Below, piece after piece: positions 36,516 to 52,601 of a stretch of DNA of 52,682 nt (position 1 is the stretch's first letter; each line of letters starts with the position of its first letter). The stretch is from an uncultured Bacilli bacterium. Lineage in GTDB: Bacteria; Bacillota_I; Bacilli_A; RF39; UBA660. Where the stretch lies: positions 1 through 52,682 of the forward strand of contig CALVSQ010000004.1 in assembly GCA_944359085.1 (NCBI GenBank), given 5' to 3'. Under the pieces are notes generated by a model. It was not told where the DNA came from and ran no database searches. It was given only the letters and a program-made list of their open reading frames with translations. The position numbers and the translations under genes were made by a program.

Positions 36516-36521
36516 ACAATC

Positions 36522-36716
36522 AAACGAAAAAGGAACTAAGTAATAAATATATTATTTAATAGAAAGTTAGTGGTTGATGGAAACTAATAATAATTATTTG
36601 TGAAATCTACTCCTTTAGTGAAATGTAAACATTTCCGGGTAAAACCGTTATCTCTTAATTAAGACTATTTTAGGATGGCACCGTATTTTGTATACTCCTA
36701 ATAAGATAGTCTTTTT
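36522..36716 (+). promoter_or_regulatory. T-box riboswitch controlling serS
   Basis: A leader of about 195 nt. The T-box sequence ATGGCACCGT (TGGCACC at 36676-36682) lies in the loop of the terminator AAGACTAT (36661-36668)/ATAGTCTT (36706-36713), which is followed by T. Stem I occupies roughly 36530-36625. A plausible specifier is TCT (Ser) at 36606-36608 in the context GAAATCTAC. Uncharged tRNA-Ser would stabilise the antiterminator and allow serS transcription. Confidence 0.85.
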
Positions 36717-36738
36717 ATTTTTAGAAAGGAAAGATATT

Positions 36739-38016
36739 ATGATCGATATTAAATTAATAAGAGAAAATAGTGAATTAGTAAAAGAAAATATTAAGAAAAA
36801 ATTTCAAGATAAGAAATTAGGTGTTGTTGATGAAGTAATTGAACTTGATAAACAATTTAGAGAATGTAAATTAAAAGGTGACAATTTAAGAGCTTTAAAA
36901 AACAAAAAAAGTTCTGAAATTGGTATTTTAATGAAAGATGGCAAAAAAGAAGAAGCTAATAAAATTAAAGAAGAAATTAGTAGTTATGCTAATCTTATGA
37001 AAGAATTAGAAGAAAAGGAAATTGTTTTAGAACAACAAATTAAAGAAAAAATGATGGTTATTCCAAATATTATTGATGATTCTGTTCCTGTTGGTAAAGA
37101 CGATAGTGAAAATGTTGAAATTGAAAAATTTGGTGAACCAGTAGTTCCTGATTATGAAATACCATATCATGCTGATATAATGAAAAATTGTTTAGATAAA
37201 GAATCTGCAGGCAGAACTAGTGGTAATGGATTTTATTATTTAATAGGTGATATAGCTCGTCTTCATTCTGCTATGTTATCTTATGCTAGAGATTTTATGA
37301 TTGATAAAGGATTTACTTATTGTATTCCACCTTTTATGATTAGAAGTGATGTTGTTAATGGTGTTATGTCATTTGAAGAAATGGATGCTATGATGTACAA
37401 AATAGAAAATGAAGATTTATATCTAATTGGTACTTCAGAACATTCTATGATAGGCAGATTTAAAAATCAAATTGTTAAAGAAAATGAATTACCTATTACA
37501 TTAACAAGTTATTCACCATGTTTTAGAAAAGAAGTAGGAGCTCATGGTATTGAAGAAAGAGGAGTATATCGTGTTCATCAATTTGAAAAACAAGAAATGG
37601 TAGTTTTATGTAAACCAGAAGATTCTATGGACTGGTATAATAAAATGTGGTCTTATACAGTTGAATTCTTTAGATCATTAGATGTTCCAGTTAGAACTTT
37701 AGAATGTTGTTCAGGTGATTTAGCAGATTTAAAAGTTAAATCATGTGATGTTGAAGCATGGAGTCCAAGACAAAAAAAATATTTTGAAGTTGGATCTTGT
37801 TCTACTTTAGGTGATGCTCAAGCAAGAAGATTAGGTATTAGAACCAAAAATGATAAAGAAACATATTATTTACATACTTTAAATAATACAGTTCTTGCTA
37901 CACCACGTGGATTAATAGCTGTATTAGAAAATAATTATCAAGAAGATGGTAGTATAAAAATACCTAAGGCTTTACAACCTTATATGGGTGGAAAAGAAAA
38001 AATTAACATTAGTTAA
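36739..38016 (+). CDS. serS: Serine-tRNA ligase
   Basis: A 425-residue class II synthetase. The N-terminal tRNA-binding coiled coil (about 25-110) has RALKNKKSSEIG. The catalytic domain has GTSEHSMIGRF, motif 2 CFRKEVGAHG with VHQFEKQE, the Ser-binding CSGDLADLK, and motif 3 NNTVLATPRGLIAVLEN. Length is typical. The ATG at 36739 (MIDIKLIREN) matches the family N-terminus and has AGAAAGGAAAG before it; upstream in-frame sequence is the T-box terminator. It is controlled by the T-box leader. Confidence 0.98.
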   Translation: MIDIKLIRENSELVKENIKKKFQDKKLGVVDEVIELDKQFRECKLKGDNLRALKNKKSSEIGILMKDGKKEEANKIKEEISSYANLMKELEEKEIVLEQQIKEKMMVIPNIIDDSVPVGKDDSENVEIEKFGEPVVPDYEIPYHADIMKNCLDKESAGRTSGNGFYYLIGDIARLHSAMLSYARDFMIDKGFTYCIPPFMIRSDVVNGVMSFEEMDAMMYKIENEDLYLIGTSEHSMIGRFKNQIVKENELPITLTSYSPCFRKEVGAHGIEERGVYRVHQFEKQEMVVLCKPEDSMDWYNKMWSYTVEFFRSLDVPVRTLECCSGDLADLKVKSCDVEAWSPRQKKYFEVGSCSTLGDAQARRLGIRTKNDKETYYLHTLNNTVLATPRGLIAVLENNYQEDGSIKIPKALQPYMGGKEKINIS

Positions 38017-49254: not shown

Positions 49255-50634
49255 ATGAAGAAAACAGTTTTATTTTTAATGAATGGTTTTGGAATTGAAC
49301 AATTAAATTCATATAATATATATAGTGCTAATTTGATGCCTAATTTGGATTTTTATACTAAAAATTATTTGTTCACATCTATTGAATCAAAAGCTCATGA
49401 TTTAATTAGTGGATATAGAACTTTTAGTACAGGATCTGATTTACCACTCACTTATTCTTTAATAGATAATTATGTGGATAATTTTAGTAATAATAAAAAT
49501 TTTGATTTTTATTTGAATGGTATTAAACCAGAAAATAAAATTCATTTGTTTTTATCATTAGAAAGTGATAAGTGTTATGATCATTTAAAAGCATTTATAA
49601 AATTTATTAGAACTAAAAAAAATAATCCTATATATATTCATTTGGTTTTAACGGCAAATAATACTAACAATTATAAAACAATTGAAAAAATTATCAATAA
49701 AATTTCATATGATATGAAAGAGTGCAAAATAGGAATGATAGTTGGATTGAATGCATTAAATGCTATTAATTTAACTGCTTTTATGAATTTATATAAAAAC
49801 GAAGTTGGTGAAAAATGGCGCGAAATTACTAAAAAAATAAGTGCTTTAGTAAATGCTAAAACAAAACCTTTTAATGTTAAAGAATTTTATATGAATGAAG
49901 GATTTAAAATAAATAATGATGATAGTTTATTTTTCTTTAATTATGAATATTGTGATTTAACTAATTTTATTAATAATGTAAGTAAAGGATTTAATGTTAA
50001 TTTTTATTCTTTGTTTGGTATAAATGGAATAAAATATACGATGTTTGCTTATCCTAAATCTGGAATTTCAATGCTAAATAGTTTAAATAAGATTGATGCT
50101 AAAGCTTTAATTTTAACTAATAAAGATAGTATTAAATTTTTAAATTATTATTGCTGTGGATTAGAAAACGTTTTATCAGAAAGAATATTTTTTACTAAAA
50201 CAGATAATGGATTAAACCCTAATTTGTTAAAATCAATAATTAAAGATTCGGATTATGATTTAATTATAATTAATTATCAAGTAGATAATGTAGAAAAAGT
50301 TGATGAACTAAAAGACAAATTAAGTAAATTAGATTCTATATTAAAAGTTATTCATGATTTTTGTGTTGAAAAAGAAATATCATTGTTTATTTCTTCATTA
50401 TATGGAATGCAAAAAGAATTAGCTGTGGATAACTTTGTTAAGGCTGTAGTTGATTTTTCGGGTAAAGTTCCATTTATCGTTGTTGACCCAATATTTAATA
50501 AAAGTAATTTTATGGTTACACAAGGTAATATATTTAATTTAGCTGATACTGTTTATACTAATATTAATAATAAATATAATGGTATAGTTTTAATAAGAAA
50601 AAAGGGATATATTACAAAAATGTTAAAAAAATAA
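49255..50634 (+). CDS. Degenerate phosphoglycerate-mutase-like (alkaline phosphatase superfamily) protein
   Basis: 459 residues. The order of motifs follows cofactor-independent phosphoglycerate mutase, but metal ligands are lost. FLMNGFGIEQ aligns with the LDGWG start (Asp replaced by Asn). LMPNLDFY aligns with TPNLD. ISGYRTFSTGSDLP sits where the catalytic Ser is. IIINYQVDNVEKV stands where NPDMVGHTG is expected (His lost), and ISSLYGMQKE where ADHGNAE is expected (Asp and His lost). It is probably not a mutase; a structural or regulatory role is possible. Assignment rests on motif order and is tentative. GAGGGATG precedes the ATG. Confidence 0.5.
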   Translation: MKKTVLFLMNGFGIEQLNSYNIYSANLMPNLDFYTKNYLFTSIESKAHDLISGYRTFSTGSDLPLTYSLIDNYVDNFSNNKNFDFYLNGIKPENKIHLFLSLESDKCYDHLKAFIKFIRTKKNNPIYIHLVLTANNTNNYKTIEKIINKISYDMKECKIGMIVGLNALNAINLTAFMNLYKNEVGEKWREITKKISALVNAKTKPFNVKEFYMNEGFKINNDDSLFFFNYEYCDLTNFINNVSKGFNVNFYSLFGINGIKYTMFAYPKSGISMLNSLNKIDAKALILTNKDSIKFLNYYCCGLENVLSERIFFTKTDNGLNPNLLKSIIKDSDYDLIIINYQVDNVEKVDELKDKLSKLDSILKVIHDFCVEKEISLFISSLYGMQKELAVDNFVKAVVDFSGKVPFIVVDPIFNKSNFMVTQGNIFNLADTVYTNINNKYNGIVLIRKKGYITKMLKK

Positions 50635-50662
50635 TTGACTAATTTAGAAAAAGTACTATAAT
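50635..50662 (+). promoter_or_regulatory. Promoter of the glyS T-box transcript
   Basis: TTGACT (50635-50640), 16-bp spacer, TATAAT (50657-50662). The -35 overlaps the end of the preceding gene. Confidence 0.75.
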
Positions 50663-50667
50663 ATATT

Positions 50668-50790
50668 TATCAATGCGATGACGGAGCTTGGAAACTCTCG
50701 AGCAATATATAAAAAAAGCGATTCTATTAGAATAAATAAGGTGGAACCACGGTAATGCGTCCTTATAGTTTCTAGTAGAATTTTATTATA
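50668..50790 (+). promoter_or_regulatory. Short T-box riboswitch upstream of glyS
   Basis: The T-box core is AAGGTGGAACCACGGTAA (TGGAACC at 50742-50748), with GCGTCCTT closing the antiterminator. The competing terminator pairs ATTCTATTAGAA (50721-50732) with TTCTAGTAGAAT (50770-50781), followed by TTT-ATT. Only about 50 nt lie between the predicted start of transcription and the terminator arm, with a small hairpin GCTTG/CGAGC (50686-50703), so Stem I is far shorter than the usual about 100 nt. The specifier is not certain; GGA (Gly) occurs at 50683-50685 and 50690-50692. Confidence 0.75.
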
Positions 50791-50802
50791 TGGGGGAATA
50801 AT

Positions 50803-51228
50803 ATGAAATATAGAATGCTTTTTTTAATAAAACTTAGTTATTATTTGGAGGGCAAAAAAATAATTTTAAATTCTGAATTATATAGTTTATTTGTTAATTT
50901 TATTTTTGAATGTTCATTTTTAAAAGAACAAATAAAAGTGATTAAAAAAATGATGATTTTAAAAGAAAATAATTTAGAATTTAGTTATGATTCATTTTTA
51001 AAATCTTATAATTATATAAAAGAAAAAATATGTGATGAAAATATGAATTATTTGGGTGTTAAAGATGGATTTTATCAATTATTTACTGAAAAAGAACTAA
51101 AAATTATGAATGATTTAGTATGGTATTTTTATAATTATTATTCTTTATATTTGGATAAATTAAGTAACGGCAAAGAAAAATTACCATACGATTATAGAAA
51201 TAATACAAAAATATATGTTTTATCTTAG
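50803..51228 (+). CDS. Hypothetical protein between T-box and glyS
   Basis: 141 residues, mostly helical, rich in Lys, Tyr, Leu and Phe, with no signal peptide and no motif I recognise. Segments LNSELYSLFVNFIFECSF and LVWYFYNYYSLYLDKL are amphipathic. The ATG has TGGGGGAATA upstream. It is the first gene after the T-box leader and ends 11 bases before glyS, so it is expressed under glycine-tRNA control with it. Its conserved position could mean a translation-linked role, but there is no direct evidence. Confidence 0.55.
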   Translation: MKYRMLFLIKLSYYLEGKKIILNSELYSLFVNFIFECSFLKEQIKVIKKMMILKENNLEFSYDSFLKSYNYIKEKICDENMNYLGVKDGFYQLFTEKELKIMNDLVWYFYNYYSLYLDKLSNGKEKLPYDYRNNTKIYVLS

Positions 51229-51239
51229 GAGGAATATTT

Positions 51240-52601
51240 ATGACAATGGAAAAAATGGTTAATTTATGTAAACAATATGGATTTATATTTCAAGGTAGTG
51301 AAATATATGGTGGTTTGGCTAATACTTGGGATTATGGACCTTTAGGTTCAAGATTAAAAAATAATATTAAAGATGCATGGAGAAAAAGATTTATTCAAGA
51401 AAGAAAAAATAGTTATGAAATAGATGCAGATATTTTAATGCATCCAAGAGTTTGGGAAGCATCTGGACATGTTAGTTCTTTTTCTGATCCATTACTAGAT
51501 TGTAAAGAATGTAAAAGTAGACATAGAGCTGATAATTTGATTGACGATTTTGATGCTAATGCTCATGCTGATGGCATGACTCAAGAAGAAATGATTAATT
51601 ATATCAAAGAACATAAAGTGCCTTGTCCAAAATGTGGCAAATCTAATTTTACAGATATTAGACAATTTAATTTGATGTTTCAAACTTATCGTGGAGTTAC
51701 TAATGATGCTAAATCAGTAGTATATTTAAGACCAGAGAATGCACAAGGAGAATATGTAAATTTCTTAAATGTTCAAAGAAGTATGCGTGCTAAATTGCCT
51801 TTTTCAATTGGTCAAATTGGTAAAGCATTTAGAAATGAAATAACACCAGGTAACTTTACTTTTAGAACAATTGAATTTGAACAAATGGAATTTCAAACAT
51901 TTTGTAAAGAAGGAACTGATTCAGAAATCTATAATTATTTTAAAGAATATGGTAAAAAATTCTTTATGGATTTAGGGTTAAAAGAAGAAGATTTAAGATT
52001 TCATGATCATGAGAAATTAGCGCATTACGCCAAAGAAGCTTGTGATATTGAATATAAATTTCCATTTGGTTGGGGAGAAATAAATGGTACTCATAATAGA
52101 ACTAATTTTGATTTATCTAGACATCAAGAATATAGTGGTGAATCTCAAACTTATTTAGATCCTGATACAAATGAAAAATATATTCCTTATATCATTGAAT
52201 CAACATATGGATTAGATAGAACTTTTTTAGCCGTTATGTTTGCTGCTTATCATGAAGATACTTTAGAAGATGGTACAACTCGTGAAGTTTTAAGTTTATC
52301 TCCTTTCTTAGCACCTTATAAAGTGGCTGTATTACCTTTAATTAAAAAATTACATTCTGCTAAAGCATTAGAAGTTTATGAGAAATTATCTAAACATTTT
52401 ATGACTAATTATGATGAAGCAGGTAATATTGGTAAAAGATATAGAAGAAATGATGTTATTGGTACACCATTTTGTATAACTATTGATGATGAAACAATTA
52501 ATAATAATACAGTTACATTAAGAGATAGAGATACTATGGAACAAATAACTATTAGTTTAGATGAAGTTGTTGACTATGTTAATGAAAGACTAAAATTTTA
52601 A
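51240..52601 (+). CDS. glyS: Glycine-tRNA ligase, homodimeric type
   Basis: A 453-residue class IIa synthetase of the alpha2 type (not the alpha/beta form). The N-terminal GFIFQGSEIYGGLANTWDYG and PLGSRLKNNI are followed by a Cys pair set (CKECKSRHRAD and CPKCGKSNF) that may hold zinc. Motif 2 is GKAFRNEITPGNFTFRT with EFEQMEFQTF, then YLRPENAQGEY and motif 3 ESTYGLDRTFLA. The C-terminal anticodon-binding domain has APYKVAVLPL and GKRYRRNDVIGTPFCITID. AGGAGG (51227-51232) is well placed for the ATG at 51240. Confidence 0.97.
   Translation: MTMEKMVNLCKQYGFIFQGSEIYGGLANTWDYGPLGSRLKNNIKDAWRKRFIQERKNSYEIDADILMHPRVWEASGHVSSFSDPLLDCKECKSRHRADNLIDDFDANAHADGMTQEEMINYIKEHKVPCPKCGKSNFTDIRQFNLMFQTYRGVTNDAKSVVYLRPENAQGEYVNFLNVQRSMRAKLPFSIGQIGKAFRNEITPGNFTFRTIEFEQMEFQTFCKEGTDSEIYNYFKEYGKKFFMDLGLKEEDLRFHDHEKLAHYAKEACDIEYKFPFGWGEINGTHNRTNFDLSRHQEYSGESQTYLDPDTNEKYIPYIIESTYGLDRTFLAVMFAAYHEDTLEDGTTREVLSLSPFLAPYKVAVLPLIKKLHSAKALEVYEKLSKHFMTNYDEAGNIGKRYRRNDVIGTPFCITIDDETINNNTVTLRDRDTMEQITISLDEVVDYVNERLKF

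Follow-up and report, generated by a model that had tools for sequence, protein, structure and literature searches.

A short T-box leader before glyS in uncultured Bacilli, with a predicted terminator built on Stem III

The known T-box leaders fall into four classes, in which the binding of tRNA is augmented by the IDTM, by Stem II or by both (PMC10482949). According to PMC7583486, transcriptional T-boxes generally need the IDTM because the tRNA must bind before the polymerase passes, and the 3' strands of their A1/A2 helices serve as the 5' strand of the terminator. Class II, represented by glyQS of Bacillus subtilis, is like the leader described here in being glycine-specific and transcriptional and in having a k-turn and a single-stranded linker instead of Stem II (PMC10482949; PMC7583486), but its Stem I is long, with an elbow-binding IDTM and an internal specifier loop, whereas the Stem I of our leader lacks the IDTM and is closed by an 8-nt specifier hairpin loop. 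The class II terminator as published uses the A1/A2 3' strand, while that of the leader appears to use Stem III. Class III, the ileS T-boxes of Nocardia and Mycobacterium, shares with the leader a short Stem I, a k-turn and a specifier in the apical loop (PMC7583486; PMC10482949). Class III, however, needs Stem II, is mostly translational and has a 5- or 6-nt specifier loop (PMC10482949), in contrast to the leader and its relatives, which lack Stem II, have a terminator and loops of 7-10 nt, and are specific for glycine. A transcriptional short form had been called odd beside the translational ileS T-boxes in an initial annotation of this DNA, and the comparison upholds that remark. Among literature titles and the first lines of abstracts, neither a transcriptional T-box with an apical specifier loop and no Stem II nor a T-box terminator made from Stem III was recognised.

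The leader was found in a stretch of 52,682 nt (hereafter the window), which is contig 4 of a 1.13-Mb assembly that is 68% complete. The nearest named records, judged by relatives of its GlyRS, are uncultured Bacilli and 'Candidatus Faecisoma', placed in Mycoplasmatota by NCBI. A phosphoglycerate mutase-like ORF (49255-50634, weak similarity) is followed by a promoter, the T-box leader, a 141-aa ORF and glyS, which is thus the second gene behind the leader. The features, with the evidence for each, are as follows.

50635..50662, + strand: sigma-70-like promoter, TTGACT-16 nt-TATAAT (11 of 12 consensus bases)
50674..50704, + strand: minimal Stem I (covariation, with UA<->AU, GC<->AU and GC<->UA exchanges)
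50674-50676/50702-50704, + strand: Stem I lower helix, UGC/GCA (covariation)
50677-50681/50700-50701, + strand: putative kink-turn, GAU-GA/GA (conserved GAUGA...GA pattern)
50683-50686/50695-50698, + strand: Stem I upper helix, GGAG/CUCU (covariation)
50687..50694, + strand: 8-nt specifier hairpin loop, CUUGGAAA (specifier GGA at 50690-50692)
50705..50715, + strand: single-stranded linker where Stem II would otherwise stand (range 9-15 nt and median 11 nt among the 83 members measured, of 146)
50716..50735, + strand: Stem III with flanking purines, AAGCG, AUUCU (50721-50725)/AGAAU (50729-50733), AA (RRRxG-StemIII-AA motif)
50737..50765, + strand: antiterminator hairpin, A1 UAAGG/CCUUA and A2 ACG/CGU (RF00230 alignment, covariation)
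50742-50748, + strand: antiterminator bulge, UGGAACC (UGGA complementary to the UCCA end of both tRNA-Gly)
50720..50782, + strand: predicted nested terminator helix, 13 pairs, then UUAUUAU (50720-50732, the opened Stem III, with 50770-50782; encloses the antiterminator)
50792..50797, + strand: Shine-Dalgarno-like GGGGGA (sequence reading; outside the helices of the model)
50803..51228, + strand: 141-aa ORF, first gene behind the leader (no credible family)
51240..52601, + strand: glyS, dimeric glycyl-tRNA synthetase, 453 aa (NF003211, E 7.4e-191)

The search of the 141-aa ORF against Pfam and NCBIfam returned no credible family (one match, E 0.078). Judged by eye, an ORF with a similar start is found in the nearest relatives L039, L040 and L048, and other relatives have a different gene, or none, at this position.

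The leader proper (50674-50765, about 92 nt) lies directly behind the promoter. A covariance-model search had been proposed as a check of its identity, and RF00230 (T-box) indeed aligns with it end to end (50669-50767, 38.1 bits, E 2.7e-7 for the genome). This score is below the curated cut-off of 93 bits, which is why the default scan of the window passes over the short form; three ordinary-length T-boxes of the same genome also score below 93 bits, so the cut-off limits the search and does not define the T-box. In the relative L011, the k-turn base, Stem III, the antiterminator and the UGGN bulge likewise align end to end. The core T-box trait, A1/A2 helices with a 7-nt UGGN bulge, is present at 50737-50765, and the amino acid of the specifier matches the regulated gene, with GGA (Gly) before glyS. 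On these testable core features the leader family counts as a T-box, one that falls outside all four published classes.

Related loci were fetched through GlyRS and searched by pattern for the T-box core, and a covariance model (R1) was built from 33 aligned short elements (L012 was omitted from 34). R1 scores 101.5 bits on the window and 45.3 bits on the next match in the same genome (L120). In a sample of the order, 106 of 146 genomes match at E<=1e-8, all 106 in the family of the window, and the matching genomes in the samples of the class (38 of 395) and the phylum (13 of 392, at E<=1e-7) also belong to this family without exception, although R1 is tuned to the family and distant analogues in these two samples could escape it. 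At E<=1e-3, 191 of the 193 genomes in the family sample are matched, but many of the weak matches are probably other T-boxes that share the antiterminator, as is seen in the genome of the window itself, and the tally thus overstates the short form. A second search with R1 of 100 places from the family sample and 52 loci gave 156 matches, 153 of them distinct, and the removal of five ordinary T-boxes left about 148 distinct short-form sequences, all from one family of uncultured Bacilli/Mycoplasmatota. The element could be located in 47 of 55 loci (four of the eight unplaced loci are other T-boxes of the genome of the window); glyS lies downstream on the same strand in 45, within 150 nt in 33 and at 475-888 nt in 12, and by coordinates about 1.45-1.5 kb downstream, beyond the fetched stretch, in the remaining two. 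Since 106 of the 146 genomes in the order sample carry the element at E<=1e-8, with compensatory changes, chance can be excluded.

The model of Stem I is comparative. In a MAFFT alignment of 33 sequences, 98% of the cells of the lower helix are paired, and UA/AU as well as GC/AU exchanges occur in it; for the upper helix the share is 82.5%, and all three pairs show two-sided changes. Two of the five measures, the pair counts and the pair-type counts, are equalled by about one shuffle in ten. One hundred further sequences, aligned to the model and hence biased toward it, show two-sided changes at 16 of 19 pairs and pairing in 96.1% of cells, compared with 39.8-50.8% for slid partners, and no shuffle equals any measure. 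A possible extension of the lower helix (columns 3-5/43-45) is paired in 73.5% of cells with a two-sided change in one sequence only, and is not claimed. When Stem I is folded alone, the ViennaRNA MFE (GAGCUU/..GAGC) conflicts with the comparative hairpin, and the latter was kept because it covaries. GAUGA facing GA is a standard k-turn pattern, and the GAUGA/GA between the two helices is read here as a k-turn.

The specifier codon had been reported as not obvious, a statement that no longer holds, for GGA stands at 50690-50692 in the 8-nt loop and only glycine codons occur at this place in the relatives. In 145 parsed members of 148, the codon is GGA in 125, GGC in 15, GGG in 3 and GGU in 2, and it is immediately preceded by U in 144 of 145. 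The parse required GGNA, so that neither the two G nor the A after the codon is independent evidence; the test rests on the third base, which was left free, and on the fit of the pattern to 145 covarying hairpins. GGCG stands in two of the three sequences that could not be parsed, and a cruder count over 153 sequences, ordinary T-boxes included, gave GGA in 108, GGC in 23, GGG in 10, GGU in 5 and none in 7. The loop has 8 nt in 72 of the 145 members, 7 in 41, 9 in 30 and 10 in 2, under a parse in which a small penalty favours 8-nt loops. The incomplete genome encodes tRNA-Gly(UCC), with the anticodon loop CUUCCAA, and tRNA-Gly(GCC); both end in UCCA, and both have U73 as the discriminator, opposite the A of UGGA. 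In a genome whose leader has the specifier GGC (G082, L155), tRNA-Gly(GCC) is present. The bulge reads UGGG instead of UGGA in L218, L219, L249 and L351.

The very short Stem I described earlier, with about 50 nt before the antiterminator, is borne out: about 68 nt separate the antiterminator from the 5' end deduced from the promoter. It could be asked whether the leader is the visible end of an ordinary class II (glyQS-type) T-box, the full Stem I of which begins upstream inside the preceding gene, and three relatives (L330, L350 and L353) do have a longer Stem I. The promoter, however, begins directly 3' of the stop codon of that gene and places the probable transcription start near 50669, which makes a longer upstream Stem I unlikely. 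Of the 148 members, 112 have such a promoter, with 9 or more of the 12 bases and its end 9-19 nt upstream of Stem I; 50 mononucleotide shuffles gave 19.2 on average and never more than 26. Covariation also shows the lower helix and the hairpin of the short form to be a unit closed in itself. A transcription start further upstream giving a full Stem I, which had been named as a refuting outcome, is contradicted by this promoter position here and in most relatives, and a class II leader is extremely improbable. Taken overall, the promoter scan did not exceed chance, with 10 weak promoter-like sites against 9.0 in shuffles.

Selection on the short form also bears on the question of whether it is a decaying remnant, with glyS expressed constitutively in these bacteria. 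Thirty further loci of the family, chosen mostly for a weak or absent R1 match, comprise 24 in which a pattern search of about 500 nt before glyS finds no T-box core, three short forms (L327, L332 and L351) and the three longer forms; the element can thus be lost. The two-sided changes at 16 of 19 pairs in the 100 sequences, the restriction to glycine codons and the covarying terminator arms described below nevertheless point to continued selection, and a remnant is very unlikely. The elements themselves, their helices and covariation, the codon and the taxonomic spread are all read from the sequences, and on these the short leader is confirmed as a conserved form and not a truncated reading.

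In addition to the distal part of Stem I, the leader lacks Stem II, as the short linker to the Stem III purines (listed above) leaves no place for it, a feature that the initial annotation had missed and that is shared with class II. Stem III is flanked by the purines of the RRRxG-StemIII-AA motif (PMC7583486), and among the 140 of 146 members with a locatable arm, the exact RRRxG occurs in 102 and AA in 140. In 14 of the 146, no local fold of Stem III reaches -1 kcal/mol; two of these 14 (L152 and L252) are mis-parsed, and no Stem III can be drawn in L247 (the same element as L025) and L251 or, by eye, in L327, L332 and L248.

The antiterminator and terminator had been described as complete, and both are, but the terminator is not of the usual T-box type and reaches back to Stem III. 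What had escaped notice is this wiring: Stem III supplies a strand of the terminator, and the antiterminator is nested within. The published trait, a terminator 5' strand formed by the A1/A2 3' strand, fails in the leader family, and in the window no complement to CGUCC lies shortly downstream of it before the T run. The arms were compared in 146 members, that is the 153 distinct sequences minus the five ordinary T-boxes, L168 (without a T run) and L248 (without a recognised core). L152 and L252, in which the core pattern was matched too early, were left in and scored 0. The duplex of a member's own arms has a mean energy of -11.4 kcal/mol, compared with -7.4 (sd 0.16) for arms exchanged among the genomes, and the best of 10,000 permutations reached -8.0. 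The same comparison for the 99 arm pairs whose Stem III sequence is not that of the majority gives -11.4 and -6.5 (sd 0.21), and the result holds with 145 distinct pairs. In 142 of the 146 members the nested duplex has an advantage of at least 2 kcal/mol over the classical hairpin, and in none is the classical hairpin ahead by that margin; the MFE holds the nested terminator and the antiterminator together in 142 of 146, and a contiguous helix of at least 8 pairs ends by the T run in 125 of 145. Of the 147 members whose core was recognised, 146 have a T run behind the terminator arm, and only L168 has none by the rule applied; since a T run was required for entry into the arm analysis, finding it in these 146 adds no independent support.

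In the window itself, the energies of the two states are -9.3 kcal/mol for Stem III and -22.8 for the terminator, and the observed energy was attained in 6 of 2,000 shuffles of the 3' arm. Stepwise folding suggests that Stem III and the antiterminator form first (to 50769), that the 3' arm begins to pair with the 3' half of Stem III once 6 more nt have emerged, and that at 50782 the full 13-bp helix displaces Stem III and keeps the antiterminator inside (-19.8 kcal/mol for 50705-50782).

Sequestration of the ribosome site was the first idea, suggested by GGGGG before the start codon, and was dropped as the terminator arms covary. A translational T-box in this genus would pair the 3' strand of the antiterminator (UCCUUAUA) with UAUGGGGGA and hide the ribosome site when the tRNA is charged. 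The window permits such a pairing on paper, and the fold of 50748-50810 contains it; the U tract (UUUUAUUAU) is interrupted here and in the closest relatives, and elsewhere a short Stem I is a feature of translational T-boxes. The 13-bp terminator arm, on the other hand, covaries across the family with a T run behind it in all but one member, the Shine-Dalgarno sequence lies outside the terminator helix in the MFE of 50666-50810, and the near relative L048 loses the drawn pairing and keeps, by eye, the nested arm and six T. A translational mode is accordingly judged unlikely, and the earlier suggestion of a transcriptional short form before glyS gains support from the covarying arms and the downstream glyS of the 47 placed loci. 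By eye, the closest relatives L039, L040 and L048 have an unusual GGGGG(G) ribosome site, and many other members have AGGAGG.

The reading favoured here, to which we give a probability of roughly three in four, is that of a transcription-attenuating T-box for tRNA-Gly, reduced to two tRNA contacts, with the terminator built on Stem III; in it, the binding of tRNA, the sensing of its charging and termination are deduced from sequence alone. The polymerase would make first Stem I, then Stem III and then the antiterminator hairpin. Two pairings would hold the tRNA: that of its UCC anticodon with the GGA loop of the k-turned Stem I and, if it is uncharged, that of its UCCA end with the UGGA bulge. 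In the absence of tRNA, or with glycyl-tRNA, the next 13 nt would invade and unfold Stem III and pair along its length, and the resulting long hairpin with its U residues would stop transcription, the antiterminator still folded inside. The moving part would thus be Stem III and not the antiterminator strand. An antiterminator without Stem III showed no appreciable tRNA binding (Li et al., 2019, as told in PMC7583486); since the antiterminator needs Stem III for tRNA, the pairing of the terminator arm with Stem III and the docking of tRNA on the discriminator would be mutually exclusive. In the members without a drawable Stem III, exchange of strands with Stem III cannot explain everything, and there the tRNA may hold the strand rather than the hairpin, by tertiary contact.

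The strength of binding is a problem for this proposal, given that a truncated Stem I is described as hardly binding tRNA without Stem II (PMC7583486). The loop sequence UUGGAAA is complementary, beyond the codon, to the stretch UUCCAA of the anticodon loop, so an extended loop-loop pairing may supply affinity. Alternatively, the short Stem I may work only with a helper, such as an L7Ae/YbxF-type protein; proteins of this type bind T-box k-turns (PMC7583486), and the k-turn is strongly conserved in the family (GAUGA). A helper would alter affinity and not wiring, and is compatible with the nested terminator; we consider its necessity rather doubtful.

Taking the proposed switch further, we lean slightly toward a fifth architectural class of T-boxes, of about 90 nt, transcriptional and without IDTM or Stem II, in which the terminator would invade Stem III while the antiterminator stays folded, and aminoacylation would be read by the tRNA keeping Stem III closed, with affinity perhaps supplied by the extended loop-loop pairing, in a lineage that is shrinking its T-boxes in general. 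The last point is drawn from the occurrence of short tyrosine forms with a nested terminator. This leader family, which is conserved in many genera within one bacterial family, seems to break three rules, namely those of an affinity booster (IDTM or Stem II), of the IDTM for transcriptional T-boxes and of the antiterminator strand as part of the terminator. Such a leader would represent a natural minimum of about 90 nt for the sensing of tRNA and offers a direct way to separate tRNA binding from switching, and comparison with the three longer forms would allow the role of the distal Stem I to be tested.

These longer forms have the same k-turn and UGGAAC specifier strand. Rfam, run on 20 of the 30 loci, supports L330 and L350 (L353 was not among the 20), and the terminator of L350 and L353 is also nested by eye, which fits a loss of the distal Stem I from a longer form that was already nested. 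The ordinary T-boxes of the family were classified by a similar rule in 37 cores, from 28 other family loci and the seven other T-boxes of the genome, with 23 classical, 9 nested, 4 unclear and 1 without a T run; two cores look spurious, and four of the classical ones (L311, L312, L320 and L323), for which a later T run had been used, look nested by eye. The 9 nested cases imply that the nested platform is not confined to glyS and is nearly universal only there. The three glyS T-boxes examined from Clostridia (L071, L084 and L086) have a classical terminator.

At 169-223 nt, the genome's seven other T-boxes have the usual length. A second T-box of the window (36518-36702, 64.2 bits, UGGC bulge) lies before serS (36688-38016, E 3e-121), and its best terminator is also nested (-9.7 vs -0.6). 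L120, on the minus strand of G000 contig 10, is an ordinary T-box interrupted by the end of the contig, so that only its 3' half is present and the RF00230 list does not include it; by eye, its terminator is nested on Stem III. L354 and L355 (G007 and G012, minus strand) are T-boxes with a shortened Stem I before tyrosyl-tRNA synthetase genes (fragments match tyrS, E 2.3e-8 and 2.5e-20); L354 has a 5-bp hairpin with UAC inside a 9-nt loop, and the MFE folds of both contain a terminator nested on Stem III.
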